From NCBI RefSeq assembly GCF_025685425.1, contig NZ_JAGTAS010000056.1:248001-312000 (forward strand): a stretch of 64,000 nucleotides of DNA, given 5' to 3'. The stretch is from Terriglobus albidus. Its GTDB lineage: Bacteria > Acidobacteriota > Terriglobia > Terriglobales > Acidobacteriaceae. Both the position numbers and the translations under genes were made by a program. Shown one piece after another: positions 30,762-53,771 of this stretch. The notes below the pieces were generated by a model. It saw only the letters and a list, made by a program, of their open reading frames with translations, was not told where the DNA came from and made no database searches. Numbering within the stretch: position 1 is the first letter of the stretch; each line of letters starts with the position of its first letter.

Positions 30762-31748
30762 TTAGAAGCTGTTTTCGTTCGATGAATGGTAGTTGAGAGA
30801 GCAGACACAACGCTTGCAAATCTCGTTCTCATCGACCTTCAGTTGCGACCGGAACTCAAAGGCGCTACTGCCGTGAAGGATATCTTCCAGCGTTCCGTGT
30901 GCCAGATTGCCGATGGACTGGTGGAAGAAACAGGGTTTTACGGTCCCGTCCACCTCCCATACAGCAGAGACCCAGGGAGCATTGCATACCGGAGCTCGAT
31001 GTGGAATCAGGCCGGCTTCTGCGGCAAAGTGGTCCGCAATGCGCTGCAGCTTCTTCCGGTTCTCTGCGATCAAGAACCCCGGGGCCAGCCGCTCACGCGC
31101 TTCGGCGACGAGATCGAACTGACGCTTGAGGGTCTCGAGCTCGGTGGCGTCCACCTGAATCGAATTGCGCCGCTCAATGGGCCAAACCAGCTCCCGGTTG
31201 AAGGCGGTGGACGAGAGATCCGCAGCCAGGAAAGAGATTCCATCCAACCCGGCATCGATCGCGGCGTCCACGGTGGCAGCCAGATGAGCGAAGTTTGCGT
31301 GTTGAACGGTGCAGCGCGCTTTGACCGGAAGTGCACCGTGCTGTTTGAGTGCATGGACTCCGCGAGAGAGCAGGGCAAAGGCGCCTTTGACACCGCGAAT
31401 CTGATCGTGAACCTCGGGCGGGCCATCGAGAGAGACAATAACCTCGTGGAACTCGGCTGTGACCAGGACAGCATGCCTCTCCAGCAGGAGCCCGCTGGTA
31501 AGCAGGGTTAGTTTCGCTCCGATCTCACGAAAGAAGTGCGTGAGCTGTGGCAGCCTTCGATGCATCAATGCTTCGCCACCGGTGAAGACGACCTGTTCTA
31601 CACCCAGCGCGAGCAGCGACTCACGTTGCCTTTGCAGAACGGCGAGGTCGAGCTCCTGGTTCTCCTCGCGTTTCCAGATGTCACACATGGCGCACCGGCA
31701 GTTGCAGCGGCTGTGCACATGCAGCAGAAGGATCGGCATCCGCGTCAT
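30762..31748 (-). CDS. Radical SAM protein with SPASM-like C-terminus, last gene of radical SAM operon
   Basis: A 328-residue protein (from MTRMPILLLHVHS). The radical SAM cluster motif C15-N-C-R-C19-A-M-C22 is at the very start, followed by FTGGEALMHRRL. The C-terminal part (CNAPWVSAVWEVDGTVKPC, then GNLAHGTLEDIL and CKRCVC) resembles a SPASM/twitch region that holds an extra iron-sulfur cluster. Unlike the five upstream radical SAM proteins it has no B12-binding domain. SPASM proteins often modify peptides, but also sugars and other small molecules. An upstream extension to 31982 is possible but overlaps the fusion gene by 190 bp. It sits 43 bp after that gene. Confidence 0.82.
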   Translation of the reverse strand: MTRMPILLLHVHSRCNCRCAMCDIWKREENQELDLAVLQRQRESLLALGVEQVVFTGGEALMHRRLPQLTHFFREIGAKLTLLTSGLLLERHAVLVTAEFHEVIVSLDGPPEVHDQIRGVKGAFALLSRGVHALKQHGALPVKARCTVQHANFAHLAATVDAAIDAGLDGISFLAADLSSTAFNRELVWPIERRNSIQVDATELETLKRQFDLVAEARERLAPGFLIAENRKKLQRIADHFAAEAGLIPHRAPVCNAPWVSAVWEVDGTVKPCFFHQSIGNLAHGTLEDILHGSSAFEFRSQLKVDENEICKRCVCSLNYHSSNENSF

Positions 31749-31791
31749 GCGGTGCTTCTCTATTTGCGGTGTCTCCGCGATTGCGGCTGTC

Positions 31792-33681
31792 TCAGGCAAG
31801 AGCCACCGTCCTTTCTCCCAGGCGGAGTACGCCATCTTGCTGCAGCTTGGCGGCAGCTTCAAACGCAGGACGAAGATCTGCTCTGATCCAACGTCGCCGG
31901 CCATCGACCTGTATCCCGGTGAAAGCGGAAAGCTCCGATGGCTGCAGAATGTGTACGAGTTCTTCCGCAACAAGCTGGACAACGCCGTTCCGCATCACGA
32001 AGTGAACATCCTGCCATGTCAGATGACGGAGCGTCTCTGCGGGTGAGAGGCCGCGGTCGGGTACGGCGATCAGATCGGCCCGGCCATCAATTTGAATCTT
32101 CCCCTGACCATCGGTCAGCCGCAACATGGTTGCTGGGTTCTCCATGAGCAGGGAGTAGAGCCGTGCCGCCGGCAGATCGTATCGCGCCATGACGAAGGCT
32201 GCTTCGTCCAGCAGATCGCCGCAGGCGGTAAGTGGGGAGTCGCTGCCAAGGGCAGCATTTTCGAAGTCCTCGATCAGTGCTGCGGCTGGAACCGTTCCGA
32301 AGAGGAATTCATTGGAACTGGGGCAGAAGATTAAACCGACACCCGCTTCGATTAGGCTTGTGATCATTTGCGGCGTAACAGCAAGTGCGTGAACAAGAAT
32401 CGTCGAAGGCTGCAGCAGATCTAACGCCCGCAGTATTTCGATCTCCTGTTTTGCTCGTTCGCTTACGCCCTCGGCCGCATGTACGATCAGAATCTCTCCA
32501 GAACCGATCGACGCTTCTTCCTGAAGCCCCGCAAAATCGAATGCCGCGGAGTGCACCCAGCGCATCTCTTCCACCACGCTGACTGGGAATTCTGGCTCTC
32601 GCATCGCGCCTGTGATGGGATTGTGATGGCAGACGCTTGTTACCCCGCACAACAGATTCCTCAACGCTCCCCACTGAATACGTGCCTCCCGTTGGACACT
32701 GCGGTGCAGTGCAATGGCTTCGGCATAACGCACCTGAATTGTGGCGGCCCATTCCTGTGCATCCGCATAGGTGCCGTCTCCCAACCTGGGAAAGAGACCG
32801 AACTCCAGATGATCGTGCGCATTAATCAGCCCAGGAAGAAGGAGATATCCATCCAGGGATATCTGTGGCTGCGGCTCAGGTGAACTGCAAAGGATAGAGC
32901 GTACACGCCCTCTCTCCACGGTCAGTGTGCGCGGCAGCGCATCATAGGCCGATAGAGCGCATCGTGCTCCGCTAATGGCAAGCTCTTGTTTCAGGTCTTC
33001 CCGCGCAAGTTGAAGCAGATACATCACCGGCTCTTCCATCAGTTCTTCGAAGGCAGAAGCCCGGTCTTGCTGTACAAAGATCCCGCGCTCCGCTTCCGAA
33101 AATCCAGGTTCGAGATCGCATACGCAATGGAACCCTTCAGCCGCAAAGATGGCTCTCAGGTCTTCCAGTCCGATCCGGTTCCAGCCAATCGTGATCTCTT
33201 CGCCATGCTGGTGGAAGGAGCGATTCCAGCCTCGCCGTTGTGCTGTATCGGGATGGATGTCGGCCAGGATAATCTGGCCTCCTGGTCGAAGCAACCGCCG
33301 CATTTCATTGCAGAAAGCTGGAAGATCGCTCACGTATCCCAGAACAAGGGAACAGAGGACGACGTCGATGGACTGTGCACAGATCGGAACCGCAGTGCAG
33401 TCTGCCTGGTGAATTGTGGCGTTCTCTGGAAGCCGCTGTTTCGCCAGCTCCAGCATCTGAGCAGAGTAGTCTACGGCGTGGATCCACTTTGCTTGCAGCT
33501 TGCTCAGAAGCGGGAAGTGTCTTCCCGTTCCGCAGCCGGCATCGAGGATTGTCTTTTCTCGCAATGATGGCAGAAGCTGCCGAAGCAGTCTTACCTCTAA
33601 CGCGCAGAATGGGTTGTGGGCATCATCATAGACCGGTGCCCATTCATCAAAGACTGCGGGAGTTGCAGGAGCCGCGATCAT
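31792..33681 (-). CDS. Methyltransferase-amidohydrolase fusion protein
   Basis: A 629-residue two-part enzyme. Residues 1 to about 235 are a class I SAM methyltransferase (ILDAGCGTGRHFPLL, motif I; later LLRPGGQIILADIHP). Residues about 245-629 are an amidohydrolase of the cytosine deaminase/chlorohydrolase type with all metal positions visible: H289-D-H291 in INAHDHLEFG, H401 in IVHAAEG, H431 in LVHALAV and D481 in LGSDSPLTACGDLLDE. The fusion implies that methylation and hydrolysis or deamination act on one compound. It overlaps the upstream gene by 4 bp (ATGA) and is seventh of eight genes in the operon. The substrate is unknown. The frame is continuous, so it is not an annotation join. 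Confidence 0.88.
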   Translation of the reverse strand: MIAAPATPAVFDEWAPVYDDAHNPFCALEVRLLRQLLPSLREKTILDAGCGTGRHFPLLSKLQAKWIHAVDYSAQMLELAKQRLPENATIHQADCTAVPICAQSIDVVLCSLVLGYVSDLPAFCNEMRRLLRPGGQIILADIHPDTAQRRGWNRSFHQHGEEITIGWNRIGLEDLRAIFAAEGFHCVCDLEPGFSEAERGIFVQQDRASAFEELMEEPVMYLLQLAREDLKQELAISGARCALSAYDALPRTLTVERGRVRSILCSSPEPQPQISLDGYLLLPGLINAHDHLEFGLFPRLGDGTYADAQEWAATIQVRYAEAIALHRSVQREARIQWGALRNLLCGVTSVCHHNPITGAMREPEFPVSVVEEMRWVHSAAFDFAGLQEEASIGSGEILIVHAAEGVSERAKQEIEILRALDLLQPSTILVHALAVTPQMITSLIEAGVGLIFCPSSNEFLFGTVPAAALIEDFENAALGSDSPLTACGDLLDEAAFVMARYDLPAARLYSLLMENPATMLRLTDGQGKIQIDGRADLIAVPDRGLSPAETLRHLTWQDVHFVMRNGVVQLVAEELVHILQPSELSAFTGIQVDGRRRWIRADLRPAFEAAAKLQQDGVLRLGERTVALA

Positions 33682-35141
33682 AGGCTTTCCCGTTTGGGCT
33701 TTCTAAGATCAATGAACCGCTGCGCCAGTACCAGTTCGTGAGGAGCGGTATAGAAACGGAATGCATAACGCCATGCACTGAGCGTCTGCAGCAGATACCG
33801 TCCCCAGCGCGGTGCGCGAATATCCTGCACCGTCGGCCAGCGCGAAGCGACAACGATCTCGAAGTTATCGATCAGGCGTTTGGTCTTGTCCTTCATCCAC
33901 GGAGCGCGGGTATCGATGCGGAGGGTGAAATCCATCCACTTCTTCTCGGCCCACTCTCCCGGGCTGGTTGGAAAGCTGATCTTATCGTCGACGTCACCGT
34001 ACATCGAACCGCGCTGCGGTGTCGGCGTGTAGTGCTGAATGATGATCTCCGAATCAGGGTTGATGCGCTTGATCTTGCGAATGAACGCCAGCGTCTCGCG
34101 GGTATCGCGCTCGGGGTCTTTTGGATTACCGACAACGAAGGAGAATTCAGGAATGATGCCGGCCTCGCGTGTCCGGCGCGCCATGATCAGCGTCTGTTCG
34201 GTGGTGATGCCTTTCTGCATCTCTTTCAGCGCCCAGTCTGAACCTGACTCGGCGCCGAAGAAGATCATCTTGCAGCCGGCACGCCGGATGGCCTGCATGG
34301 TCTCATCGCTGTAACGCGACATAATGTCGACACGAGCTTCGCACCACCAGCGTAACTTCAAAGGGGCGATGCGATCCATGAGCTCCCGGGCATGATCTTC
34401 GCTCAGAAAGAAGTTCATATCGTAGAACTGGACGGAGTCGGCGTCGTAGCGGTCGACTAGGTGACGCAGAATCGCTTCGGTACGCGCGGGAGACTCAAAC
34501 TTTTCGGTTCTGCCGTATGCAGCATGCACGCCACAGAAGCTGCAGTTGAAGGGACAGCCGATGCTGGCGTGGTGCACCGCTGTGCGTTTGCCGAAAAATG
34601 AGGGACGAAGATACTTCTCGACCGGAAGCCGGTGGAATGGTGACCACGGAAATGCGTCCGGCCCCTTCATCGGGCGCTCGGCGTTATTACGATGGAAGCC
34701 GAACTGGTCCTTGTGCGAGAGCCCTAGGATGCTGTCGAAGGTACGCTGTCCACGAAGCGCCTCCAGCAGCTCGAGCAATGTGTCCTCCCCCTGTCCGCGG
34801 ACCGCAAAGTCGATGTACTTCGCATTGAGCGTCGCTTCGGGATAGATGGAAGGGAAGTAGCCTCCCCAGACGATCGGAACGTGAGGCCGCAGTTTGCGAA
34901 TCTCGCGGCAGACCTCCATGCCGGCAGCCATCTGCGGCCCGGGCATCACTGACACACCAAGCAACTCCACGCGATGCTGGTCGATCAGGCTGAGCAGCGT
35001 GCCCAATGGGTCGTCATCGACATTGCCGTCGACGATCTCATACTCCTCACGACCTTCCAGCACGGCCGCCAGGGCAAGCACTGCGAGAGGCAGCCGGCGG
35101 CTTCGAGGTTTCACGGCACGAGGATGAAAGAGGAGAATCAT
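33678..35141 (-). CDS. B12-binding-type radical SAM protein E
   Basis: A 487-residue protein with an N-terminal cobalamin-binding-like Rossmann region (about 1-130; LGVSVMPGPQ, VPIVWGGYFPSIYPEATL, FAVRGQGEDTLLELL) and a radical SAM core with C196-P-F-N-C200-S-F-C203, followed by a C-terminal helical tail. The family (BchE/HpnJ-like architecture) performs radical methylations, cyclisations or rearrangements, using SAM and often cobalamin. It overlaps both neighbours by 4 bp. It belongs to the operon but is not closely similar to the A/B or C/D pairs. Confidence 0.88.
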   Translation of the reverse strand: MILLFHPRAVKPRSRRLPLAVLALAAVLEGREEYEIVDGNVDDDPLGTLLSLIDQHRVELLGVSVMPGPQMAAGMEVCREIRKLRPHVPIVWGGYFPSIYPEATLNAKYIDFAVRGQGEDTLLELLEALRGQRTFDSILGLSHKDQFGFHRNNAERPMKGPDAFPWSPFHRLPVEKYLRPSFFGKRTAVHHASIGCPFNCSFCGVHAAYGRTEKFESPARTEAILRHLVDRYDADSVQFYDMNFFLSEDHARELMDRIAPLKLRWWCEARVDIMSRYSDETMQAIRRAGCKMIFFGAESGSDWALKEMQKGITTEQTLIMARRTREAGIIPEFSFVVGNPKDPERDTRETLAFIRKIKRINPDSEIIIQHYTPTPQRGSMYGDVDDKISFPTSPGEWAEKKWMDFTLRIDTRAPWMKDKTKRLIDNFEIVVASRWPTVQDIRAPRWGRYLLQTLSAWRYAFRFYTAPHELVLAQRFIDLRKPKRESL

Positions 35142-35944
35142 ACAGCCTCCCCAGTCTTCTCAAAGTGCAACAGCATGTGATCTCCAAGTTTGCGCAGCAG
35201 CGGCAAGCGGGAGAACATCGCATCCAGCCGGACAAAGATCCGAAGCAGAAGAGGGCGTTTCTGTATCCACGATTCGACGTATGACGGCGGCACGAAAAGT
35301 CCGATCGCCCGCACGCCGCGGAGTCTGAAGTGTGGACGGAAAGCCTGTTTGAGAGTGTTCAGCGTAGGGTAGTAAACGTCCACCGGCATGCCCTGCAGCA
35401 TTGCCTGATGTCTTCCCGTCCACCGACGAAAAGCCTTAGCAGGCTTGGCGTGCAGTAGATACCACGCGGTCTCCCACAGGCAGACACGGGTCGACATACA
35501 GAGAAGCAACGGAGAGCCTGGCGTGGTCTTTTCCGCCAGCATGCGAGCGACCGGAGCCAGATCGCGAACGCAATTCAGGCCTGAGAAGTTCGAGAAGACG
35601 CCGTCGAACTCCCCAGCAATCTCTCTCAGGTCTTCGGTGGCTACCTGCCTGAACTGCGGATTGTCTCGTGCTCCAAGGTTCTCCCTCCGAACCCGGGCGC
35701 AGGCGATCATCCTCTCCGATGCATCCAGAGCCAGCACTCTCCAGCCATTCTCTGCGAAACGGAGAGCGTCTTCGCCGGTACCGCAATTCAGTTCCAGAAG
35801 CCGTCTACGGCCTGGAAAGATACGAAACGCATCCTTCATCACTGCGGAACGCTGTGCCTGCCCGACATCGCTTTGCGTGAAGTCGTCGTCATACGTGTCG
35901 GCCATCGTATCGAACGCCCGGCCGGCTGGGTGTTCCGCAATCAT
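35138..35944 (-). CDS. SAM-dependent methyltransferase
   Basis: A 268-residue class I methyltransferase. Motif I is LLELNCGTGEDALRFA (about 49-64), followed by VLALDASERMIACAR and FDGVFSNFSGLNCVRDL. The C-terminal part has amphipathic, partly hydrophobic helices (PLLLRIFVRLDAMFSRLPLL), which may indicate a membrane-bound or lipid-like substrate. It overlaps genes on both sides by 4 bp. It may carry out an ordinary N- or O-methylation next to the radical SAM steps. Confidence 0.88.
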   Translation of the reverse strand: MIAEHPAGRAFDTMADTYDDDFTQSDVGQAQRSAVMKDAFRIFPGRRRLLELNCGTGEDALRFAENGWRVLALDASERMIACARVRRENLGARDNPQFRQVATEDLREIAGEFDGVFSNFSGLNCVRDLAPVARMLAEKTTPGSPLLLCMSTRVCLWETAWYLLHAKPAKAFRRWTGRHQAMLQGMPVDVYYPTLNTLKQAFRPHFRLRGVRAIGLFVPPSYVESWIQKRPLLLRIFVRLDAMFSRLPLLRKLGDHMLLHFEKTGEAV

Positions 35945-37338
35945 GCCTCTACCTCTGCAGCCGCATCCATCAGGCCGGTCCGGGCATTGCGTATCTCTTC
36001 AGCCAGGCGGCTGACCTCCTGCTCGTCGGGTGTGCTTGTACCGCTCATCCGCGCGAGAGCGACTTCGCTACGGAGCAGCTTGTCAGCGAAACTGTAATAA
36101 CGGCGGGAATGGCGGCCGCGAATCTTGATCTCCCGGTCAGAGCTCGTGCCCCACGGTGCAAGCTGAACCAGGTCATCCTGGATCTTCTTGTAGTAGGGCG
36201 TTCCTTTGATTGGGTAGGAGACAGTAGTGAAGAAGATATCCGGCTGCGTCCGGCTTACATGCTGGATGGTGGCTTCGATGTCTTCCATCTCTTCGCCATC
36301 GTAGCCCCACATCAGGAACATTCCGCTCTCGATACCGTGGGTCTTGCTCAGTTCAACGGCGCGCTGCACCTGGTCCAGCTTGACGCCGCGCTGCATGGAG
36401 TCCAGAATGCGCTGCGAACCGCTCTCCGATCCGATCCAGACGCGGAAGCAGCCCAGCTCAGCCAGCAGGTCCATCGCCTCTTCATTCAGACGGTCGGCTC
36501 GTGAGATGCATTCAAACGGAATGCGAAGGCCGCGGCGCTTCATCTCGGCGGCATAGGTGCGTAACCAGGTGTGGTTGATAGTAAAGACATCGTCCGAGAC
36601 CCACACCATGTCCGGCTGGTACTCCGAGAGTAGCCACTCTACCTCATCCACCACCAGCAGCGGATCGCGGCGGCGATGGGTGTTGCCATAGACCTGGTGA
36701 CTGCACCACTGGCAGCGGTAGGCACATCCGCGTGCCGTGATGAAGTTGACGGAACCTTTGCCGTGGTGTGTACGCCAGGTATCCACGTACTTCTGGATAT
36801 TCACCATCTTGCGCGCAGGCCAGGGCTGGTCGTCTAGGCACTTGATCTGTGCCCGCGGTGGAGTTTGGCGAAGCTCTCCGTTTTCGAGGTAGGCCAGGCC
36901 ATCGATCTTGCTCACCTGATCGAGTCCGCCTGAACGGATGGCGGTCATCAACTCTTCCAGCGTCAGCTCGCCTTCGCCCAGAACCACAAACTCGGCGCCG
37001 GCATCAAGATATTCTTTGGCGTAGGCCCCGGGCTCCGGACCTCCGACGATCGTTCGCCATCCAGCCTCGCGTGCGATCCGCAGCAGCTCCACTACATTGC
37101 TACGAGTCATCAGATTGGCATAGAGGCCCAGCGTTGACGGTGTCCCTGTCTGCAGGCGTTCGATGAGGGCCGCCTTCGACGAGAAGGTCGTATCGAAGAC
37201 CTCGACATCGAACCCCTTTGCCTGCAGATGTGAGCAGAGATAAAGAATGCCCAGTGGGGCATAGGGCTTCATGATCTGCAGCTCTTTGGGGTCTTCGTAG
37301 AGAAAGTAGCCGTGGGCCAACAGCAGGTCAGGAGTCAT
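35941..37338 (-). CDS. B12-binding-type radical SAM protein D
   Basis: A 465-residue protein with an N-terminal B12-binding-like domain (YEDPKELQIMKPYAPLGILY; VFDTTFSSKAALIERL; TIVGGPEPGAYAKEYL; VVLGEGELTLEELM) and a radical SAM core with C205-A-Y-R-C209-Q-W-C212. It is closely related to protein C just upstream: the first 50 residues share DPK-L--M-PYAPLG-LY and VFDTT. The pair suggests duplication followed by divergence. It overlaps protein C and the methyltransferase by 4 bp. Confidence 0.88.
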   Translation of the reverse strand: MTPDLLLAHGYFLYEDPKELQIMKPYAPLGILYLCSHLQAKGFDVEVFDTTFSSKAALIERLQTGTPSTLGLYANLMTRSNVVELLRIAREAGWRTIVGGPEPGAYAKEYLDAGAEFVVLGEGELTLEELMTAIRSGGLDQVSKIDGLAYLENGELRQTPPRAQIKCLDDQPWPARKMVNIQKYVDTWRTHHGKGSVNFITARGCAYRCQWCSHQVYGNTHRRRDPLLVVDEVEWLLSEYQPDMVWVSDDVFTINHTWLRTYAAEMKRRGLRIPFECISRADRLNEEAMDLLAELGCFRVWIGSESGSQRILDSMQRGVKLDQVQRAVELSKTHGIESGMFLMWGYDGEEMEDIEATIQHVSRTQPDIFFTTVSYPIKGTPYYKKIQDDLVQLAPWGTSSDREIKIRGRHSRRYYSFADKLLRSEVALARMSGTSTPDEQEVSRLAEEIRNARTGLMDAAAEVEA

Positions 37339-38822
37339 ACGGCGCCTCCAGCAGGTGTGAGTGCATGAAGCGGCAGGAAACTTGCTGAGTCCTTGCTGGA
37401 ACGTGGCTGCAGTATGTGTTCTATGTCTCTCCGTTCCTGCGGCTCAAGCGCGGCGATGTGTTTCCACATGGCATCCACCTGCGGCTCATGGTCCGAACCG
37501 CTCTTCCATCCGCTGACTTCCAAGTGCAGCGCATCGCGAATCGTGCGATAGAAGCTGTCGGAGTAAGCGCCGGAGAACATGACGCACAGATCGTCACTGT
37601 CCTTCCAGTTACGTTTTGCCGCCAGCTCGGCCTGGACGCGTTCATAGAAAACCGTTCCCGGCAGGGGGTACGAGATGCTGACACCGATATCATCCGGACG
37701 CGTGGCGCGGACCAAAGCAACTGTTTCCAGCAGCTCCCGCCATCCTTCGCCCGGATAACCAAGCTGCAGGAAGAAGCATGCCTTGATGCCGGCAGTGCGG
37801 AGATGAGTGGTTGCCGCGACTACGTCTGAAACTTGAAGTCGTTTGTCCATCGCATCCAGAACCTTCTGTGATCCTGACTCGACGCCCATCCAGACCTCGT
37901 CGCATCCGCTTTCCGCCAGCAAGGAAACCACATCCTCGCGCAGGAGATCGGCTCTCGCCTGGATCTTGTAAGGAATGACCGCCTCGTAGGTGTGCACCCA
38001 CCGGGCGAAGTCATGCAGCCAGTGCCGGTTCAGGGCAAAAATATCGTCGCTGAACCAGATGTGTTCCGCGCCGTAGTACAGCTTCAGGTCGCGCAGCTCC
38101 CGTGCGACGTCGGCTGCAGGGCGAAGCTGATACTTGTTGCCGGAGATCGGCTTCGCGCACCAGTTGCAGGAATAAGGACAGCCCCGGCTGGCGACGACAT
38201 TCGCGGAAAAGCGCCCGTGAGCATCGGTCCATGCATCGCGGTAGAGGCCCATGTCGATGAGGTCACGCGCCGGCAGCGGCATCTTGGACCAGTCGCTATT
38301 ACGAACCGGATTGCTTCCGCTGCGGTGAAGCGAACCTGCCGTATCCTTCCAGATCAGGCCCGGGATTCCGGATGGATCCTGATTCGCAAGGAGGGCATGG
38401 CATAACTCGGTAAGGGTACCCTCAGCCTCGCCAGTCAGAATGTAGTCCACACCGGCCTTCAGATACTCTTCCGCGAAGTCGGTCTCGTCGGAGCCATGAC
38501 CCACGACGACGGCTCCTGCCGCCTTTCCCAGCCGTGCGATCTGTTCTGCTGTCTGGCGCATGGAGAGCAGACACATCTTCGAGAGAAAGTTGAAGTCATC
38601 CTCGTAAATCACTAGTACCTTTGGATTTTCTCGATTAAGGACCGTCTTTAGACTCCGGAGCGGATTCTTCAGGGTGGTATCAAAGACCGTTACCGAGACG
38701 CCGGAATCACGGAGAGCCGCGGCGGCATAGAGGGTGCCCAAAGGGGCATAGGGCTGCATCTTCCGCAGTTGCTTCGGATCGTTAGCCAGGTGATAGGAGT
38801 GAGTGAGAAGGATATCGGTCAT
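37335..38822 (-). CDS. B12-binding-type radical SAM protein C
   Basis: A 495-residue protein. The N-terminal cobalamin-binding-like domain includes HLANDPKQLRKMQPYAPLG, VFDTTLKNPLRSLKTVL and GAVVVGHGSDETDFAEEYL; the radical SAM motif is C215-P-Y-S-C219-N-W-C222. The C-terminal tail has about 120 residues after the core. It is a paralogue of protein D. It starts 15 bp after protein B ends and overlaps D by 4 bp. Confidence 0.88.
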   Translation of the reverse strand: MTDILLTHSYHLANDPKQLRKMQPYAPLGTLYAAAALRDSGVSVTVFDTTLKNPLRSLKTVLNRENPKVLVIYEDDFNFLSKMCLLSMRQTAEQIARLGKAAGAVVVGHGSDETDFAEEYLKAGVDYILTGEAEGTLTELCHALLANQDPSGIPGLIWKDTAGSLHRSGSNPVRNSDWSKMPLPARDLIDMGLYRDAWTDAHGRFSANVVASRGCPYSCNWCAKPISGNKYQLRPAADVARELRDLKLYYGAEHIWFSDDIFALNRHWLHDFARWVHTYEAVIPYKIQARADLLREDVVSLLAESGCDEVWMGVESGSQKVLDAMDKRLQVSDVVAATTHLRTAGIKACFFLQLGYPGEGWRELLETVALVRATRPDDIGVSISYPLPGTVFYERVQAELAAKRNWKDSDDLCVMFSGAYSDSFYRTIRDALHLEVSGWKSGSDHEPQVDAMWKHIAALEPQERRDIEHILQPRSSKDSASFLPLHALTPAGGAV

Positions 38823-38837
38823 CGTGGGTACTCCGTG

Positions 38838-40400
38838 CTAACAAGCGGCTGCCTGGTCAGGAAGATCCTGACCGGTCACCAACGATCTGCGGGATGCAAG
38901 TGGTCCTGAGAGTCTGGACGCCCAGAGTTCCCAGGGAAAGCCGTAATGGCTTGAACGGACGCGCCAGCTTACGGTCTGTTTGAACAATCGGCGGAGGGCG
39001 GCTGTCTTCAGGGTTTCCTTTTCGTGTCGACGATGAACCTGGCCGTTCAGGAGGAAGTAGTCTGTCATCCGTTTCAGGCGCTCAAGCTCCTCGCCTTGCA
39101 GCCATGGCAAGGCATTCACGCTGAGCGGCAGCTTGATCCACTCTTCCAGGGTTTGGGGCTCCCGCACTCCCAGCTCACGGAGCTGAGGCCAGATGGGAAT
39201 GCCGGGATAAGGGGTAAACAGGTTTGGCGAGAACTGGACGTTGTTGTAGCGCTCCACGATGTCACTCATGGTCTGGAAGGTAAGTACCCTGTCTTCTTCT
39301 GTTTCCCCCGGATATCCAAAGATCAGGTTGAAGTTGATCTTGATGCCGGAGACGTGCGCTTTGCGTGCCGTCTCATACATCTCGTCCACGCGCTGATGGC
39401 GCTTGTTCATCAGCTTTAGCACCCGTGCTGAGGTTGACTCGGTCCCGAAGCCCATCACCTTTACGCCGCTATCGGCCAGGAGTTGCACTTCATCCTGGGT
39501 CATGCGGCAAAGGAAATCGGTCGAGGCCTGAAAGGTCCACTGAAAGCGAACTCCGGAGTTTACGATTCCGCGGGCGATCGCCAATGCCCGCTTTACATCT
39601 ACCGGGAAGTTCGAGTCGAGCAGGGCGACCTCGTCGATCCGGTACTTGCGTACCAGATCGACGAGCTCACCCACCACCCGGTCCGCGTCATAGGCATTGA
39701 AGCGTCGCCGGTATACCACCATGTCGGTGCAGTAGTTGCATGCGTAGGGACAGCCCACGCTGGTGGCGTAGGCCAGCTTGCGATGTCCATTGAGCGGCTC
39801 ATAGGCGTCGAAGTCCGCCAGGTCGTAAGCGGGCGGAGCGAAGCTGCCGATGGGAGCGACGGTGCGCTCGGGATTCTCAATGATCTCGCCGTCCTGTTTC
39901 CAATGAATGCCTGCGATCGGGCCAACTGAACTGCCCTGAGAGAAGGCCTGGGCAAGTTCCAGCATGGTCAGCTCTCCCTGTCCACGTACCACGACATCGA
40001 CGTACGGCTCGCGCACGGTCTGGGCGGGTTCCAGCGAGGGATGCCACCCTCCAAAGATCACCGGAAGTTCGGGGCGGGAAACCTTCAGTGCTTTCGCTGC
40101 GGCGATCGCCCCGCGGATCATCGGCCCCGTCAGCACAGAGATCCCAACGCAGACAGCGTCAGCGCTCTCCGCGACGATGCGTTGTAGATAGTCCTTATGA
40201 ATGCAGGCGTCGATGATGCTGATCCTGAAACCGGCGTCACGCAGAACTCCGGCGAGCGCCAGAAGACAGAGCGGAGCTCCGAGCGGGGGGCCGTCGTAGG
40301 GCGGATAGAACAGCACCACCTTGTCCCGGCCGGGCGAGGGGCATAGCGAACTGTGCACCGGAGCCGGCCGGATGGCGCTGGCTGGCAGCACGTTCAGCAT
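38838..40400 (-). CDS. B12-binding-type radical SAM protein B
   Basis: A 520-residue protein with a B12-binding-like domain (DKVVLFYPPYDGPPLGAPL; ISVLTGPMIRGAIAAAKAL; LPVIFGGWHPSLEPAQTV; VVVRGQGELTMLELAQ) and a radical SAM core with C217-P-Y-A-C221-N-Y-C224. It is clearly homologous to protein A along the whole length, including LADFDAYE before the core, NLFTPYPGIPIW after it, and a C-terminal end AAAC in both. The ATG overlaps the stop of A (ATGCTGA). Confidence 0.88.
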   Translation of the reverse strand: MLNVLPASAIRPAPVHSSLCPSPGRDKVVLFYPPYDGPPLGAPLCLLALAGVLRDAGFRISIIDACIHKDYLQRIVAESADAVCVGISVLTGPMIRGAIAAAKALKVSRPELPVIFGGWHPSLEPAQTVREPYVDVVVRGQGELTMLELAQAFSQGSSVGPIAGIHWKQDGEIIENPERTVAPIGSFAPPAYDLADFDAYEPLNGHRKLAYATSVGCPYACNYCTDMVVYRRRFNAYDADRVVGELVDLVRKYRIDEVALLDSNFPVDVKRALAIARGIVNSGVRFQWTFQASTDFLCRMTQDEVQLLADSGVKVMGFGTESTSARVLKLMNKRHQRVDEMYETARKAHVSGIKINFNLIFGYPGETEEDRVLTFQTMSDIVERYNNVQFSPNLFTPYPGIPIWPQLRELGVREPQTLEEWIKLPLSVNALPWLQGEELERLKRMTDYFLLNGQVHRRHEKETLKTAALRRLFKQTVSWRVRSSHYGFPWELWASRLSGPLASRRSLVTGQDLPDQAAAC

Positions 40401-41908
40401 GCCGCCGCCTCCGCCGGGGTGCGGGCAAGCCGCTTGGCATCCACAGCCGGTTTTCCTTTGGGAATCCGTTTCTTCAGCTTGTTATTCAGCCAGATGTCGA
40501 CCGGAAAGCGGTACACGTCGTGATCAAGACGCCAGCGGGCCGGGAAGGAGATGGCCTTCTGTGCCAACCGGATGATCGGTGGGCGCGTGTCGGCGGCGAT
40601 GGGGATACGGTTGAAGGCCAAGCGCAGGTACTCGCGCGTGTCCTGAAGCCGCTTATGGTCTTCACCCTTCAGCCAGGGCAGTTCGGTGTAACGGGGGAAG
40701 AAGTCTGCCCAGCCCTCCAGCGTGGTCGGCGGCTCGATGCCAATCTCCGCTGTGCGCTTGAAGATCGGAGAGCCCGGGTAGGGCGTAAAGATGTTGGTCC
40801 AGAACTCCGCGCCCGGAAACTTGCGGCAGACGTCGAGCATGAATTCGACAGTCTCGCGGCGTTCCTTCGGTCCTTCGCCGGGGAAGGCAAAGATGATGTT
40901 GAAGGAGGGGCGAATGCCGGCCTCCAGGCAGCGCGCTGCGCTTTCGTAGATCGAGTCGAAGTCCTGGAAGTCCTTGTTCATCGCCTTCAGGATCGTGGGC
41001 GATCCTGAATCGACGCCCTGACATACCTGCCGCAGTCCAGCCCGGCGCAGCAAACGCATATCTTCCAGTGACAGCCTTGCTACCAGGTTCGTTGTTGCCT
41101 GAATACTCCAGGTGTAATGCGAGTTTTCGCGGACCAGACCTTCGGCGATGCCGCGCGCACGGTCAAGATCGACGAGGAAGTTATCATCGACGACCCAGAT
41201 CATCTCCAGCTCATAGCGCCGGCTCAGATCCACGGTCTCTTCGACAAACTGTTCTGGGGGGAGGGCATTCCATTTTCTGCCATAGACGCCACCGTTGGTG
41301 CAGTAGGCGCAGTTGAAGGGGCAGGCGAGACTGGAGGTGTACATTGCCCAGCGGCGTCCGCAGGATCGCTCGTAGGCGTCGAAGTCCGCCAGGTGGTAGG
41401 CCTTCGGCGGCATCTCCACGATGGGGCGCAGCGGTCTCTCTGGCGTAAAGATGATGCGGCCGTCGCGCTTGAAGCCGATACCGGCGATCAGGTCCGGCGC
41501 CGATCCGCTGCTGAGATGCTGCACCAGCTCCAGCATCGCGTCTTCGCCCTGGCCACGGACGACGTAGTCCACGCAGGCGGCTTCGAGCGTCTGTTGCGGC
41601 AGCAGCGACGGATGCCAGCCACCCAGGACGACCGGAAAGTCCGGCTTCCATTCCTTGACGGCTCTGGCGATCGCAACGGTCTCCCGGATCATCGGTCCGG
41701 TGACCAGAGAGACGGCGAGGCAGAGGGCGTCCTTTACCTCTTCGAGAACCCGTTTCTGGAAGTCCGGTGTGATCGTCGAATCGACGAGACAGATCTGGTA
41801 GCCGGCGCGCTCCAACGGTGTCGAAACCGCAAGAATACCCAAAGGCGCCGTCGCTTCCGTACTTGCGAACGACGGGAAGAAGAAGACGATTTTGCGGGAG
41901 CGTGCCAG
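40394..41908 (-). CDS. B12-binding-type radical SAM protein A, first gene of operon, likely CTG start
   Basis: A roughly 504-residue protein. The B12-binding-like domain begins RKIVFFFPSFASTEATAPLG and includes VSLVTGPMIRETVAIARAV, VVLGGWHPSLLPQQTLEA and YVVRGQGEDAMLEL. The core motif is C196-P-F-N-C200-A-Y-C203 (numbered from the CTG). The nearest conventional start (TTG at 41842) would remove the first beta strand that paralogue B has. No ATG, GTG or TTG exists between that point and the in-frame stop upstream, but a CTG at 41908 is preceded by GAGG with 9 bases between. A frameshift near the start is the alternative. The operon continues through seven more genes. Confidence 0.82.
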   Translation of the reverse strand: MARSRKIVFFFPSFASTEATAPLGILAVSTPLERAGYQICLVDSTITPDFQKRVLEEVKDALCLAVSLVTGPMIRETVAIARAVKEWKPDFPVVLGGWHPSLLPQQTLEAACVDYVVRGQGEDAMLELVQHLSSGSAPDLIAGIGFKRDGRIIFTPERPLRPIVEMPPKAYHLADFDAYERSCGRRWAMYTSSLACPFNCAYCTNGGVYGRKWNALPPEQFVEETVDLSRRYELEMIWVVDDNFLVDLDRARGIAEGLVRENSHYTWSIQATTNLVARLSLEDMRLLRRAGLRQVCQGVDSGSPTILKAMNKDFQDFDSIYESAARCLEAGIRPSFNIIFAFPGEGPKERRETVEFMLDVCRKFPGAEFWTNIFTPYPGSPIFKRTAEIGIEPPTTLEGWADFFPRYTELPWLKGEDHKRLQDTREYLRLAFNRIPIAADTRPPIIRLAQKAISFPARWRLDHDVYRFPVDIWLNNKLKKRIPKGKPAVDAKRLARTPAEAAAC

Positions 41909-42040: not shown

Positions 42041-42133
42041 GTTCGCATGTATCCGATTTCAAATGTCTTGCAACAAGAGCCATGATTTGATGTGATGGGA
42101 CGGCGGAAACATCGATGTGAATTGGAGATACAG

Positions 42134-44239
42134 ATGGTGGGAAGTAAACGTTTTCTTGCTTCGATCGGCAAGATGATTCTTTTTGTGTTGGTTGGGCTGG
42201 CTGCTTCCAGGGCAATGGCACAACTGCCCGATACGATCCTCTTCGGAGTTGCTTATTACGACGAATACACACCGGTCGATCGCGTCGAAGAAGATGCACG
42301 GATGATGAAGGCAGCCGGCATCACAGTCGTTCGCATCGCGGAGTCTACGTGGGGAACCCTGGAACCGCAGCCCGGTGTCTTTGATTTCTCCCACATCGAC
42401 CGCACGCTTGCCGCCATGCAGCGGAGCGGGATCAAGGTTATCGTTGGAACGCCGACCTACGCGATTCCGACGTGGCTGGCGCGTCAGCATCCGGAGATCC
42501 TGGTCGTCCGTCGGGAAGGCCAGGCCCGTTACGGCCCTCGCCAGAATATGGACATCACCAATCCCGAGTTCCGGCGGGAGGCTGAGCGGGTGATTGTCGC
42601 TCTCGTGGATCACGTCAAGGACAACCCTGCCGTCATCGGATACCAGGTAGACAACGAAACGAAGGCATACGGCAATACCGGAGCGAATGTGCAGACAGCG
42701 TTCGTCAAGGAGATGCAGCGTAAGTTCCCTAGCCTGGACACTCTGAACCATGCCTTCGGTCTTGATTACTGGAGCAACCGGATCAATCGCTGGGAGGACT
42801 TTCCCTCGGTCGACGCCTCCATCAATGCCAGCCTCTCCAATGCGTTCTCGGAATTTCAGCGGGGACTGGTGACGGAGTATCTTGCCTGGCAGGCCGGTCT
42901 GGTCCGCGCTCATTATCGGCCTGGACAGTTCATCACGCAGAACTTCGATCTAAGCTGGCAGGGCTACTCGTACGGCGTTCAGCCCGAAGTAAACCATTGG
43001 GAGGCAGCCAAGGCGCTCGATGTCGCCGGGATCGATATCTACTATCCCAGCCAGGAAAAACTTACCGGCGCGGGGATTGCCTTTGGCGGGGATGTCGCCC
43101 GTTCCATGAAGAACGGGAAGAACTTCCTGCTCATGGAGACCGAGGCACAGGGGTTTCCGAATTGGACGCCCTATCCCGGCCAGCTTCGATTGCAGGCGTT
43201 CAGCCACATCGCTTCCGGCGCGAATATGGTGGAGTACTGGCACTGGGCCACAACCGCCAACGGGATCGAGACCTACTGGAGGGGAGTGCTCACGCAGGAC
43301 TACCAGCCTAACCCGACCTACGAAGAAGCAAAGACCATCGGCGCCGATCTACAGCGGCTTGGAAGCAAGCTCGTCAATATGAAGAAGCACAATCAGGTCG
43401 CCATGTATGTGAGCAATACAGCGCTCGATGGCTTCGACGCATTCCGCATTAATACAGATGGGGGCATCGGCTACAACAATGTACTCCGCTCGCTCTACGA
43501 TGCGCTCTACCGCATGAACGTGGAGGTGGATCTCATCTCCCCGTCGTCGACGGTCCCGCTGAGCGACTACAAGTTGATCCTTGTACCTGCGCTGTACTCA
43601 GCCAGTGACGCGGAGATCGCGAAGTTGAATGCCTACGCCAAAGCGGGAGGGCACCTGGTCTACACCTTCAAGAGCGGCTTCTCCGACGAGAACACGAAGG
43701 TGCGCTATGCTGCGCAACCTGGTGGCATCTCTGAAGCTGCGGGCGTGAAATACAGTGAGTTCGCGATTCCGGAGGGTGTCACGTTGGATGGTGATCCTTT
43801 CGGTGTCGGCGAGCAGGACAATAAGGTGCGTTGGTGGATGGAGTTTCTGAATCCTACAACAGCAACTGTTCTTGCACGCTACAAGCACTCGTCGTGGCCC
43901 GCATATGCCGCCGTGACACGCAATACCTACGGCAAAGGCGAAGTCACTTACGTCGGCTTTATGCCGACGGATGCGACGGCTGAAAAGATCCTCGAAGATG
44001 CTGTGAAACGAGCCGGTGTCGAGTCGCTGCCGGGCGCCCATTTCCCCATGATTGTCCGCAGCGGAACGTTGCAGAATGGCCATCTGGTTCACTATTTCCT
44101 GAACTACTCGAAGGATAAGCAGCAAGTGAGCTACGGTTATCAAAACGGAAGTGATCTTCTTTCAGGAAAACAGATCAGCCGCGGACGGGCGTTGGATCTT
44201 GCTCCATGGGGAGTCGCGATTGTGGAGGAGAGTCAGTAA
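42134..44239 (+). CDS. Secreted GH42-family beta-galactosidase
   Basis: A 701-residue enzyme with a signal peptide (MILFVLVGLAASRAMAQ region), a GH42 TIM barrel starting FGVAYYDEY and containing the proton donor in GYQVDNE (E175) and the nucleophile in LLMETEAQG (E335), a trimerisation/beta-galactosidase middle domain (about 420-620, VEVDLISPSSTVPLSDYKLI), and a small C-terminal beta domain. It cleaves terminal beta-galactosides, here outside the cytoplasm. I start at 42134 because GGAG lies 6 bases upstream and a signal peptide follows; the frame extends 14 codons further. It is divergent from the radical SAM operon and near GH59 and aldose epimerase genes. Confidence 0.9.
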   Translation: MVGSKRFLASIGKMILFVLVGLAASRAMAQLPDTILFGVAYYDEYTPVDRVEEDARMMKAAGITVVRIAESTWGTLEPQPGVFDFSHIDRTLAAMQRSGIKVIVGTPTYAIPTWLARQHPEILVVRREGQARYGPRQNMDITNPEFRREAERVIVALVDHVKDNPAVIGYQVDNETKAYGNTGANVQTAFVKEMQRKFPSLDTLNHAFGLDYWSNRINRWEDFPSVDASINASLSNAFSEFQRGLVTEYLAWQAGLVRAHYRPGQFITQNFDLSWQGYSYGVQPEVNHWEAAKALDVAGIDIYYPSQEKLTGAGIAFGGDVARSMKNGKNFLLMETEAQGFPNWTPYPGQLRLQAFSHIASGANMVEYWHWATTANGIETYWRGVLTQDYQPNPTYEEAKTIGADLQRLGSKLVNMKKHNQVAMYVSNTALDGFDAFRINTDGGIGYNNVLRSLYDALYRMNVEVDLISPSSTVPLSDYKLILVPALYSASDAEIAKLNAYAKAGGHLVYTFKSGFSDENTKVRYAAQPGGISEAAGVKYSEFAIPEGVTLDGDPFGVGEQDNKVRWWMEFLNPTTATVLARYKHSSWPAYAAVTRNTYGKGEVTYVGFMPTDATAEKILEDAVKRAGVESLPGAHFPMIVRSGTLQNGHLVHYFLNYSKDKQQVSYGYQNGSDLLSGKQISRGRALDLAPWGVAIVEESQ

Positions 44240-44259
44240 TAGTTCCCACTGAGGGCATC

Positions 44260-45066
44260 TCAATTCGTTGAAGGTCGAGTGATATGTGTGATGATTACGG
44301 CATCAACATCCGCTTTCATCGCTTCCAATCTCAGACCAAGCTCATCCTGCAAGGCTGTGAAGATAGACGCTCTGGAAACGCCATCTTTTTCCGACCCATC
44401 TTGAGCGTTCGGCAAGGTATTGTCAGAAGTCCATGTCAGCGAGATATCGTATTGTCCCACCAATCCTGTTCTATCGATGATCTGCCGTTCGAGTCCGACT
44501 TTGCTCAGCGCGTAGATGAGAGCATCCATCGGAATACCCCGCCCCTCGATCTTGCCTGTACTCTGCGTCAGGTTCCATCCTGGGCTTTTCGCGTCAGCGC
44601 GAGCGGGAGAGATTTCTTTTATCTTTGGTCCAGATTTGGAAAGGACGAGGGCATAAACCGGAGCTTCTTTCTTGCCATTGTGAGCGACTAAACCACACCG
44701 CTCTTTCAGTATTTGCTGCAATACTGTCTTTTGCTCTTCGAATGGCATCTGTCTGAAGGTCGTTACACTCTCTTCGGCGATGGTCGCTTCGATATCCCAG
44801 CGCAGGTCTTCAGCCCACTCAGGTAATCCCTCAATGAGATCATTCCGCTGCTTGTTGAAAGCAAAACCGATGATCCGAAACATCGGGGAGTTTGTGACGA
44901 CAATTCTGTTTCCGTTGGGGGGAATGCTGAGATAACCTTGTTCGTTGCCGGATCGATTTTCCTTCATGGAGACAGCGTCGAGGTGGATGGCAGTCTGGGC
45001 AGTCAGCTGAGCCAATCCCATAATCGGCATCAAGAGAAGGGTAGAGGTGAGCAATCTCTTCAGCAT
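44260..45066 (-). CDS. TIGR03435-family secreted protein
   Basis: A 268-residue protein with a signal peptide (MLKRLLTSTLLLMPIMGLAQ) and the soil-bacterial TIGR03435 pattern: AIHLDAVSMKENRSG, ITNSPMF-type segment followed by RIIGFAF, LPEWAEDLRWDIEA, LLKERCGL-like ILKERCGLVAHNGKKEAPVY, IIDRTGLVGQYDISLTW, and a closing IITHITRPSTN. The function of the family is unknown. It is typical of Acidobacteria and occurs in many copies there. Confidence 0.85.
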   Translation of the reverse strand: MLKRLLTSTLLLMPIMGLAQLTAQTAIHLDAVSMKENRSGNEQGYLSIPPNGNRIVVTNSPMFRIIGFAFNKQRNDLIEGLPEWAEDLRWDIEATIAEESVTTFRQMPFEEQKTVLQQILKERCGLVAHNGKKEAPVYALVLSKSGPKIKEISPARADAKSPGWNLTQSTGKIEGRGIPMDALIYALSKVGLERQIIDRTGLVGQYDISLTWTSDNTLPNAQDGSEKDGVSRASIFTALQDELGLRLEAMKADVDAVIITHITRPSTN

Positions 45067-45294
45067 GGGACGAGTATATCCAGTCCCGGACGCTCATCAG
45101 CCGCCATATACTGTATCCGTTCCACTAGAGTTCCCCTCGTCAAAGGTAATATCTCCGAGTGGCTGCTTGCTCATCTCTGTCATTCGAAACCTGCGATGAA
45201 CGCATCGGAAACCAACTGTTTTCCAAGCGGTCCACCGACTTCGTGGTTCTTCCAGATCGTTTTAAGTATGTTTTCCCAGCAAAAAAGGGGCACT

Positions 45295-47265
45295 ATGAAT
45301 TCCATGCACCGCGCTCTTTTGGTCTTAACTGCTGTAGCCGGGCTCCTGTCGGGGACACGTGGCGTGGCACAGACGACGATCCACCTGGACGCAACCAGCT
45401 CTGGCAAGGTATTTGAAGGATTGGGCGCGGTGAGTGCCGGAGCCAGTTCACGGTTGTTGATTGATTATCCGGAGCCGCAGCGCTCCGAGATCCTGGACTT
45501 CTTGTTCAAGCCGAAGTTTGGTGCTTCACTGCAACATTTGAAGGTTGAAATTGGATCGGACGTTAATTCCACGGATGGGTCCGAGCCCAGCCACATGCGT
45601 TCAGCGAATGACCATGATTATTCCCGTGGATATGAATGGTGGTTGATGAAGGAAGCCCGGAAGCGCAACCCGGCAATTGTGTTGGATACGCTCGCGTGGG
45701 GTGCTCCTGGCTGGGTGGGACATGGCAAGTTTTTCAGTAAGGACATGGCGGAATACGTCGCCGACTTCCTGGAGGGTGCGCAGAAACAAGGTTTGAATAT
45801 TGAATACACCGGAGCGTGGAATGAGCGCCGTCCTGACTATGAATGGGTAAAGTTGCTGCGCACGGTGCTTGACCAGCATGGCCTGAAGACCAAGATCGTT
45901 TGCTGCGATATGACCCCGAACTCAGGCATGTACACGGTGCTGGATAAAGTGAACGCCGACCCGGCACTGGACAAAGCAGTCGATGTGATTGGTGTGCATT
46001 ATCCTGCCGAGGTTCCGGGGATCGCACCGGCAGCGATTCAGGATACGCAACGCCGGGTCTGGTCCAGTGAAGATCAACCAAACCCTGGGAGCGGCCCGTT
46101 TATCGCGCGCGATTGGGCGCATGGAGGACGTATCCTGGCGCGGCGCTACAACGAGAACTACATTAAGGCGCACTTTACGAAAACAGAGATATGGAGTCCG
46201 ATCACTTCGTACTACGACCTGCTTGCGGCGCCGAACTCCGGTCTGATGTACGCCAATACGCCCTGGTCGGGAAACTACGAAGTCCAGTCCACAATCTGGG
46301 TAACGGCGCATACGACACAGTTCGTCGAACCGGGATGGAAGTACATGGATTCTGCTACGGGCTATTTGCCTGACGATAGCGGTACCTATGTGGCCATGCA
46401 CGCTCCTCTATCAGGGAGCAAGCCTGCGGATTGGAGCATCATCCTGGAGACCACATCCGCGAACCGTGTGCAACACGTCACACTGCAGTTGAGTAAGGGG
46501 CTGAGCAACGGAACGGCGTTCGTCTGGCAGACGAATGCAACAAAGACGTTTGAACAGGTTGCTGCTACTCCGGTGAAAGATGGGCGCGTGACGTATGACT
46601 TTGAACCGGGCTCCATCTACACCGTCACGACAACGACCGGACAAACTCGCGGCACAAGCCATCCGCCGGCGGCCGCGGCATTTCCTTTTCCGTATTCTGA
46701 CGATTTTGAAGCAGTCGAGATCGGTCGAACCGCGAAGTATCTGAGCGATCAGGACGGTGCATTTGAGGCGATTGCATGTGAGGGACGCGCCGGCCGCTGC
46801 GTACAACAGAAGATTACGGAAAGGCCAACGCCATGGTCGCCGCGACCCGATCCATTCACCATGGCTGGTGATGTCAAGTGGACCGACTACAAAATTGGTA
46901 TCGATGTGATGCTGCCTAAGGACGGTATCGCAACAGTGCAGGGCCGGATAGATTCCGCGGACGTCTTCCAGGATCACAACGCTCTCTATCCCAGCGGTTA
47001 TGTTCTCAAAGTTGCAGCGAATGGGAACTGGTCATTACTATCGACGCGATTCAAAAATTCCCCGGCAGCTCTGGCGCAGGGACATACTGATCTCAAGCAA
47101 GGCTGGCATCGGATGGAACTGCAATTCCAGGGAGCCTCGATTACCGCGTTCTTAGACGGGAAGCAACTTTCGCTGGTTCAAGATACCGCACACTCTGCAG
47201 GAATGGCCGGCTTTGGAAGCGATTGGTCGAACGTGCAATTCGACAACCTCAGAATAAGTAAATAG
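45295..47265 (+). CDS. Secreted GH59-like galactocerebrosidase
   Basis: A 656-residue enzyme: signal peptide (to about residue 25), TIM-barrel and beta-sandwich catalytic part opening with IHLDATSSGKVFEGLGAVS, acid/base E177 in YTGAWNERRPDYEW, nucleophile E259 in VWSSEDQ, and a C-terminal lectin-like sandwich (SDDFEAVEIGRTAKYL to VQFDNLRISK) as in animal GALC. GH59 enzymes release galactose from beta-galactosylceramide and related galactosides. The start is ATG 45295 with GGGG a few bases upstream; a long frame further upstream overlaps another gene and is not coding. Followed by a strong hairpin. Confidence 0.88.
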   Translation: MNSMHRALLVLTAVAGLLSGTRGVAQTTIHLDATSSGKVFEGLGAVSAGASSRLLIDYPEPQRSEILDFLFKPKFGASLQHLKVEIGSDVNSTDGSEPSHMRSANDHDYSRGYEWWLMKEARKRNPAIVLDTLAWGAPGWVGHGKFFSKDMAEYVADFLEGAQKQGLNIEYTGAWNERRPDYEWVKLLRTVLDQHGLKTKIVCCDMTPNSGMYTVLDKVNADPALDKAVDVIGVHYPAEVPGIAPAAIQDTQRRVWSSEDQPNPGSGPFIARDWAHGGRILARRYNENYIKAHFTKTEIWSPITSYYDLLAAPNSGLMYANTPWSGNYEVQSTIWVTAHTTQFVEPGWKYMDSATGYLPDDSGTYVAMHAPLSGSKPADWSIILETTSANRVQHVTLQLSKGLSNGTAFVWQTNATKTFEQVAATPVKDGRVTYDFEPGSIYTVTTTTGQTRGTSHPPAAAAFPFPYSDDFEAVEIGRTAKYLSDQDGAFEAIACEGRAGRCVQQKITERPTPWSPRPDPFTMAGDVKWTDYKIGIDVMLPKDGIATVQGRIDSADVFQDHNALYPSGYVLKVAANGNWSLLSTRFKNSPAALAQGHTDLKQGWHRMELQFQGASITAFLDGKQLSLVQDTAHSAGMAGFGSDWSNVQFDNLRISK

Positions 47266-47304
47266 GAAACATTCTGTGCGGGAGGAACTACAAAGGACCT
47301 CATC

Positions 47305-47332
47305 GGCACGTGAGATCTTGGTCTCACGTGCC
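47305..47332 (+). terminator. Hairpin after GH59 gene
   Basis: Perfect 11-bp arms (GGCACGTGAGA and complement) around a 6-base loop, 40 bp after the GH59 stop and directly before a dispersed repeat. It lacks a long T run but probably ends transcription. Confidence 0.6.
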
Positions 47333-47334
47333 TG

Positions 47335-47446
47335 GAGCATTTCCCTGGAGGTGTAAGACTAGGGCTTCCGCATCGATGGGCGTTTTCCGCATGAAGACGC
47401 CGCTTCACACCCTTTCCGGAATCACCAGCAACAGGAAAGATGCTCT
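47335..47446 (+). repeat. Dispersed palindromic repeat, copy 3
   Basis: Starts GAGCATTTCCCTGGAGGTGT, has the inner GGGCGTTTTCCGCATGAAG block and ends GATGCTCT. The right end overlaps the TAG stop codon of the converging aldose epimerase gene. Confidence 0.8.

Positions 47447-53695: not shown

Positions 53696-53771
<76 letters not shown>

Follow-up and report, generated by a model that had tools for sequence, protein, structure and literature searches.

The radical S-adenosylmethionine (SAM) proteins BchE, PhpK, HpnJ and rSAM_ladder_B12 have the same domain order as five proteins encoded together in the acidobacterium Terriglobus albidus and are among the best NCBIfam matches of these proteins, but none of the matches reaches its curated cut-off, and the operon described here holds five such proteins. 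It lies in a stretch of 64,000 nucleotides (NCBI RefSeq assembly GCF_025685425.1, contig NZ_JAGTAS010000056.1, positions 248,001 to 312,000), which was analysed as a whole and is called the window below. Eight same-strand genes, named G1 to G8 in order of transcription, run from 41908 to 30762 on the minus strand and encode five B12-type radical SAM proteins, one SPASM-type radical SAM protein, one methyltransferase and one methyltransferase-amidohydrolase fusion. It is unusual for six radical SAM enzymes to share an operon that has no recognizable scaffold-building enzyme of its own. This operon is conserved, strongly selected and associated with genes for surface polysaccharides, which have been little studied in this major soil phylum. 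We tentatively propose that the operon represents one pathway whose product, inferred from the evidence set out below, is a hypermodified unit of sugar or nucleoside type destined for a surface polysaccharide.

Solved proteins offer a second set of comparisons. The closest to the G3 family profile is AprD4 (E 9.8e-29), a radical SAM diol dehydratase of apramycin biosynthesis, although G3 scores 105 with NF033070 against a cut-off of 500. The B12-type domain of AprD4 is degenerate, and AprD3 is its partner reductase. For G8, the best solved relative by profile as well as by model is BlsE, the cytosylglucuronate decarboxylase of the blasticidin S pathway, and SkfB, a maturase of ribosomally synthesized and post-translationally modified peptides, comes second. 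G8 and BlsE are 19% identical, their profile match spans part of the radical SAM core only, and the cytosylglucuronate decarboxylase model TIGR04466 gives 56.9 bits with G8, missing its cut-off of 400. The amidohydrolase of G7, modelled by AlphaFold2 with a predicted local distance difference test score of 95.2, has the fold and the catalytic frame of methylthioadenosine (MTA)/S-adenosylhomocysteine (SAH)/adenosine-type deaminases (TM0936 and relatives), at 16-22% identity to the seven best. Its residues H61, H63, H173, E176, H203 and D253 are invariant in 44 rows; we take HxH, HxxE, H and D to be the defining metal and catalytic residues of MTA/SAH/5'-deoxyadenosine deaminases. Unlike MTA/SAH deaminases, it is fused to, or lies beside, a methyltransferase within a radical SAM operon.

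The domain assignments agree with a preliminary description of this DNA, made from the sequence alone, which had listed five B12-binding-type radical SAM proteins and one SPASM-like radical SAM protein. Pfam Radical_SAM exceeds its gathering score in G1, G2, G3, G4, G6 and G8, and the CxxxCxxC motif is intact in all six. B12-binding is above its gathering score in G1, G2, G4 and G6 and just under it in G3 (31.5 versus 32.1 bits), and protein identity between G1 and G2 is about 37-42% across loci. In G8, SPASM (PF13186; 37.5 versus 21.5 bits) follows the radical SAM core, and five C-terminal Cys columns are invariant in 39 rows. G5 and the N-terminal third of G7 contain methyltransferase domains, and Amidohydro_1 matches the C-terminal part of G7. 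The two methyltransferase domains and the amidohydrolase of the preliminary gene set stand, but the amidohydrolase is no separate gene, being fused to the second methyltransferase. In other loci the two halves (G7m and G7a) are adjacent separate genes. None of the eight proteins has a listed NCBIfam match above cut-off (for five of them among the best 25 matches). The named equivalogs BchE, HpnJ, HpnR, PhpK, BzaD, AprD4, rSAM_ladder_B12 and others all missed their curated cut-offs, and the best score among the B12-type proteins was that of BchE on G4, 156 versus 481 bits. Assignment to a known family was dropped, since NCBIfam listed no match above cut-off and Pfam names domains only. As far as literature searches reach, the operon appears undescribed: judged by title and the start of the abstract, publications on Acidobacteria, radical SAM enzymes and biosynthetic gene clusters yielded nothing on it, in line with the earlier statement that no described cluster of this composition was recognized.

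Gene order and conservation of the operon

The earlier placement of all eight genes on one strand was confirmed, whereas the view that most of them are joined by 4-bp ATGA overlaps applies to four of the seven junctions (G3/G4, G4/G5, G5/G6 and G6/G7); the other three are one 7-bp overlap, one 15-bp gap and an overlap at G7/G8. The frame of G1 has no ATG, GTG or TTG upstream of the B12-type domain, and its start is likely the CTG at 41908, both in the window and in the corresponding locus (L038) of the same-genus genome G135; near this position L041 has a TTG and L073 a GTG. G8 probably starts at the TTG at 31799 rather than at 31982. No cobalamin riboswitch was detected at gathering score in the window or in the loci of seven relatives.

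All eight genes are under strong purifying selection. Relative to G135, the ratio of nonsynonymous to synonymous substitution rates (dN/dS) is 0.012 for G1, 0.020 for G6, 0.025 for G4, 0.035 for G2, 0.085 for G3, 0.093 for G5, 0.116 for G8 and 0.128 for G7. Because the frames are long, their order is kept in many genomes and dN/dS lies within this range throughout, the operon is beyond chance.

Matches to G7 occur in 56 of the 299 genomes of the class at E 1e-20; by the rows listed, they involve the amidohydrolase part in 47 and the methyltransferase part alone in nine. The cluster is present in three of the nine listed genomes of the window's genus. At E 1e-60, 33 of the 396 genomes searched across the phylum match G6, 14 in the window's family and 19 elsewhere, and a pattern scan of a species-genome collection confirmed 397 stretches with relatives of the amidohydrolase, the best 80 of which are all acidobacterial by title. 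Gene order was compared in 40 fetched genomes of the 56 and in the best 80 of the 397 stretches. Of the 120 loci L038-L157, 20 were dropped as duplicates, and 26 of the remaining 100, being shorter than 15 kb, were counted apart. Loci with at least two of G1, G2, G4, G6 and G8 were classed as full, and those with at least two of GTP cyclohydrolase II, the compact-type methyltransferase and a GT1-type glycosyltransferase as compact, so that the shares of these class-defining genes are partly definitional. Gene shares are also lower bounds, because the gene caller, a greedy longest-frame procedure, missed some genes, such as G5 in L064.

Across the 100 non-duplicate loci, the full form reads G1-(G2)-G3-G4-G5-MT9-G6-G7m-G7a-G8, with G7m and G7a fused or separate and with MT9 as a third methyltransferase that most full-type relatives carry. 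Among the 49 full loci of at least 15 kb, MT9 was found in at least 40, G2 in 31, G8 in 44 and the G7 fusion in 25. In the window, L038, L039 and L054, G5 and G6 lie too close together for MT9 to stand between them. G2 stands between G7 and G8 in L050 (2408-3913), and G2 and G5 both follow G7 in L126.

The context in other classes was read by eye in 20 stretches from 19 genomes, which are all the matches outside the window's family among the 33 G6 matches. In these genomes G6 is accompanied by varying subsets of the operon genes. L192 has the order G8-like, G3, G1/G2-like, G4, G5, G6, G7m, G7a, adjoined by GT4-type genes; in L180 and L186 the operon genes are scattered among GDP-fucose-synthase-, GT4-, FkbM-, PIG-L- and GNAT-like genes; and in L188 and L183 G6 alone was recognized. 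The gene order recurs in Terriglobia and, rearranged, in other Acidobacteriota, and the neighbourhood comparison speaks for genes kept together in order, not for unrelated neighbours. With this order, purifying selection on every gene and no named family above cut-off, the earlier suggestion of one multi-step pathway gains support.

Table 1. Genes of the operon in order of transcription, with window coordinates and Pfam domain scores
Gene	Coordinates	Strand	Product	Length and start	Domain scores (bits)
G1	40394..41908	-	B12-binding radical SAM protein	504 aa, CTG start	B12-binding 63.4, Radical_SAM 75
G2	38838..40400	-	B12-binding radical SAM protein, G1 paralogue	520 aa	B12-binding 75.4, Radical_SAM 64.8
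G3	37335..38822	-	Radical SAM protein, weak B12-type domain	495 aa	B12-binding 31.5
G4	35941..37338	-	B12-binding radical SAM protein	465 aa	B12-binding 51.8, Radical_SAM 77.1
G5	35138..35944	-	Class I SAM-dependent methyltransferase	268 aa	Methyltransf_25 46.5
G6	33678..35141	-	B12-binding radical SAM protein	487 aa	B12-binding 67.8, Radical_SAM 55.6
G7	31792..33681	-	Methyltransferase (~1-228) + deaminase-type amidohydrolase (~229-629)		Methyltransf_11 77.8, Amidohydro_1 53.1
G8	30762..31799	-	SPASM-type radical SAM protein		Radical_SAM 51.9, SPASM 37.5

Linkage and co-occurrence with exopolysaccharide genes

The operon is linked to, and co-occurs with, a Wza-type exopolysaccharide locus beyond chance. 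Of 30 genomes chosen from the 56 with G7 matches, 19 have a Poly_export (Wza) gene no more than 30 kb from the cluster, where genome size and copy number predict 1.77; for a distance of 15 kb the figures are 14 observed and 0.93 expected. A polysaccharide-type gene, with families assigned by eye, is present in 23 of the 49 full loci of at least 15 kb, or in 37 of them if HprK-like, NTP_transf_5, GT87 and GT1 genes are added, both counts being without a random-locus control. The preliminary observation that no glycosyltransferase stands beside the operon consequently holds for this window but not in general.

In the window's genome (G000) the exopolysaccharide locus is on another contig, C54, at 72000-111800 (L202 and L203). 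Pfam recognizes WecG-type and GT4 glycosyltransferases, Wzy_C, a flippase, Wzz and a 1043-aa SLBB/Poly_export protein in this locus and confirmed NTP_transf_5 there, and a presumed outer-membrane protein, a c-type cytochrome, a sensor kinase, a regulator and an HprK-like gene were recognized by eye. A family search gave none for the presumed outer-membrane protein and the c-type cytochrome. HprK-related kinase models were rejected for the HprK-like gene, as their matches were weak and below cut-off. Among related loci, L200 has a cupredoxin/COX2-type protein in addition, and L198 has Wzi.

The presumed outer-membrane protein, which has matches in 59 of the 299 genomes, served as the marker of the exopolysaccharide locus. 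Within the Acidobacteriaceae, the marker at E 1e-15 is present in all 27 genomes with the cluster and in 16 of the 36 without it (Fisher 5e-7), the latter being at least 36, namely the cluster-less genomes among the matches listed, including G242 with its match to the methyltransferase part alone. Close copies (at least 45% identity, a threshold chosen after a gap between 45% and 42% had been seen) occur in 26 of 27 genomes with the cluster and in 5 of 36 without it (Fisher 1e-11), and stratification by genus gives P 1.8e-7; because the genomes are related and were treated as independent, these P values overstate independence, which tells against our reading. In 14 of the 27 cluster-bearing genomes, no more than 30 kb separates the marker from the cluster.

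A compact form of the cluster

Some loci have a compact form, with the order NTP_transf_5 - methyltransferase - GTP cyclohydrolase II - G3 - MT9 - amidohydrolase - GT1-type glycosyltransferase, partly followed by GT87. It keeps G3 as its single radical SAM enzyme and amounts to a smaller pathway, of one radical SAM enzyme, two methyltransferases, one hydrolase and GTP cyclohydrolase II, that offers a first place to test the steps common to both forms. Among the 21 compact loci of at least 15 kb, GT1 is present in 21, the HprK-like gene in 20, MT9 in 20, NTP_transf_5 in 19, GTP cyclohydrolase II in 18, a phytanoyl-CoA-dioxygenase-type gene in 17 and GT87 in 10; GT1 and GTP cyclohydrolase II helped to define the class.

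A tree of G3 (85 rows, G3 frames below 75% of the length excluded) was built by a quick method with the Shimodaira-Hasegawa-like approximate likelihood ratio test as its only support and was rooted at the midpoint, which leaves the rows of other classes on the far side of the root. On this tree 23 compact rows fall into one group of 27 (support 98), together with the full-type locus L091 and three unclassified rows, and a single change suffices to separate compact from full. The next relatives of the group are full-type loci, including L047 and L051, in which GTP cyclohydrolase II and GT87 stand divergently beside the full operon. Since the compact form is nested within the full form, loss from the latter is its most likely origin. 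The gain of GTP cyclohydrolase II may have come earlier than this loss, or may have happened independently in L047 and L051. As it lies near only 3 of the 49 full loci of at least 15 kb, GTP cyclohydrolase II is no feature of the full form and was rejected as its general partner.

An extra 3,4-dihydroxy-2-butanone 4-phosphate (DHBP) synthase is present in six of seven compact genomes versus none of eight others. In five of these six it lies about 6-19 kb from the cluster, and in G215 it is on another contig. Production of a lumazine or flavin by the compact form through a lumazine synthase of its own was discarded, all 15 of 15 genomes having no second copy of PF00885. At least two GTP cyclohydrolase II domains occur in 12 of the 13 genomes searched; those of G000 are on contig C54 at 36826-37338 and 109565-110101, one in a 390-aa frame with a DHBP synthase match and one by itself in a 245-aa frame.

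A possible product and its alternatives

The proposed pathway would act on a small and polar building block, with a nucleoside or nucleotide sugar as the likeliest candidate. Taken in a putative order, G1, G2, G3, G4 and G6 could perform successive radical steps, namely C-methylation, dehydration or rearrangement, and G8 could act in the manner of BlsE, with a radical reaction on a sugar ring, for example a decarboxylation. G5 and the N-terminal part of G7, with the third methyltransferase in relatives, may carry out O- or N-methylation, and the C-terminal part of G7 a deaminase-type hydrolysis; the product would then be used by, or decorate, the exopolysaccharide of the Wza/Wzz/flippase/polymerase locus. 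The preliminary description had suggested a small molecule or lipid, and it is only likeness of fold and profile that narrows this towards a sugar- or nucleoside-type unit.

A number of observations weigh against this proposal. No enzyme of the operon has a demonstrated substrate, and none follows from likeness to BlsE or AprD4. For 11 of the 30 genomes, among them the window's and G135, the matches listed include no Poly_export gene within 30 kb of the cluster. G000 and G135 have no polysaccharide genes next to the operon; the marker, Poly_export and NTP_transf_5 stand together away from it, so that the tie there is one of co-occurrence and not of linkage. G194, G260 and others have the marker far from the operon and Poly_export near it; marker and locus are therefore not one fixed unit. 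The marker is absent from the cluster-bearing genomes of four further families (f4, f5, f6 and f9) and, outside the window's family, accompanies the cluster only in G280 (f7), which limits the co-occurrence to Acidobacteriaceae and G280. Linkage without function could also result from a hot spot for accessory clusters, and two published Granulicella polysaccharides were explained by ordinary sugars and pyruvate (PMC5259719).

Such a hot spot, merely shared with polysaccharide genes, is central to a rather doubtful alternative in which the operon's product is a small bioactive compound that is freely secreted, such as an antibiotic-like modified nucleoside or amino sugar. The patchy distribution (56 genomes of the class with a G7 match, three of nine listed genomes of the genus), enzyme kinds known from antibiotic pathways, with BlsE and AprD4 as best solved relatives, and the GT1-type glycosyltransferase in every compact locus of at least 15 kb, where GT1 partly defined the class, would all suit a secreted product. 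Yet no transporter or resistance gene was recognized by eye among the families recurring near the operon, genes in fewer than three loci being left out, and the exopolysaccharide marker co-occurs with the operon in G000 and G135 though the two are unlinked there. Modification of a ribosomal peptide appears very unlikely. SkfB is second to BlsE for G8, SPASM and B12-type radical SAM enzymes are frequent in ribosomal-peptide pathways, and HprK-like and NTP_transf_5 genes, both near many loci here, also occur in lasso-peptide clusters, but among the listed genes of at least 80 aa, shorter frames not having been searched, the operon shows no recurrent short gene, and neither a peptidase nor a leader-binding partner was recognized.

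It is quite possible that the G7 amidohydrolase has no biosynthetic role and clears the 5'-deoxyadenosine and SAH arising from six radical SAM and two methyltransferase units, which would be compatible with any pathway. Its low identity to the seven best matches argues against salvage, as does its retention in compact loci with one radical SAM enzyme. Foldseek's own ranking puts atrazine chlorohydrolase AtzA first, which also counts against our proposed deaminase-type step, and the nucleoside pocket may differ, because profile positions ~74-175 did not align to 4dyk and 4gbd (the AtzA match reached position 121). A nucleoside-deaminase-type hydrolase is out of place in the C-methylation or cyclisation of a lipid or tetrapyrrole of the kind associated with HpnR, the ladderane-type family or BchE, an activity that we consider improbable for the operon. 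BchE, HpnJ and rSAM_ladder_B12 are among the best NCBIfam matches of the B12-type proteins, with BchE at the top for G1, G2 and G4; BchM matches G5 weakly; and in one locus of another class, L180 (5-3877), glutamyl-tRNA-reductase-like and ferrochelatase-like genes adjoin G6 by eye, a point that also counts against our reading. The scores are far under cut-off (BchE at most 156 versus 481 bits) and common to the superfamily, however, and no lipid or tetrapyrrole gene was recognized by eye among the recurring neighbours in Terriglobia.

A more specific variant of the polysaccharide reading, which we regard as unlikely, would have up to six radical SAM enzymes build a surface-bound hypermodified nucleoside- or pterin/flavin-like unit from guanosine triphosphate (GTP), carried by an exopolysaccharide in whose locus c-type cytochromes and a CuA-type cupredoxin are encoded as well. 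If it were true, soil acidobacteria would possess a polysaccharide with a chemically or redox-active decoration, and the compact form, with GTP cyclohydrolase II and often DHBP synthase, would be a trimmed pathway.

Elsewhere in the window, two glycoside hydrolases (GH42 and GH59-type) are encoded divergently from the operon at 42092-48629, with an aldose 1-epimerase beyond them, and a tandem of tRNA-Cys and tRNA-Gly lies on the minus strand at 53584-53771.

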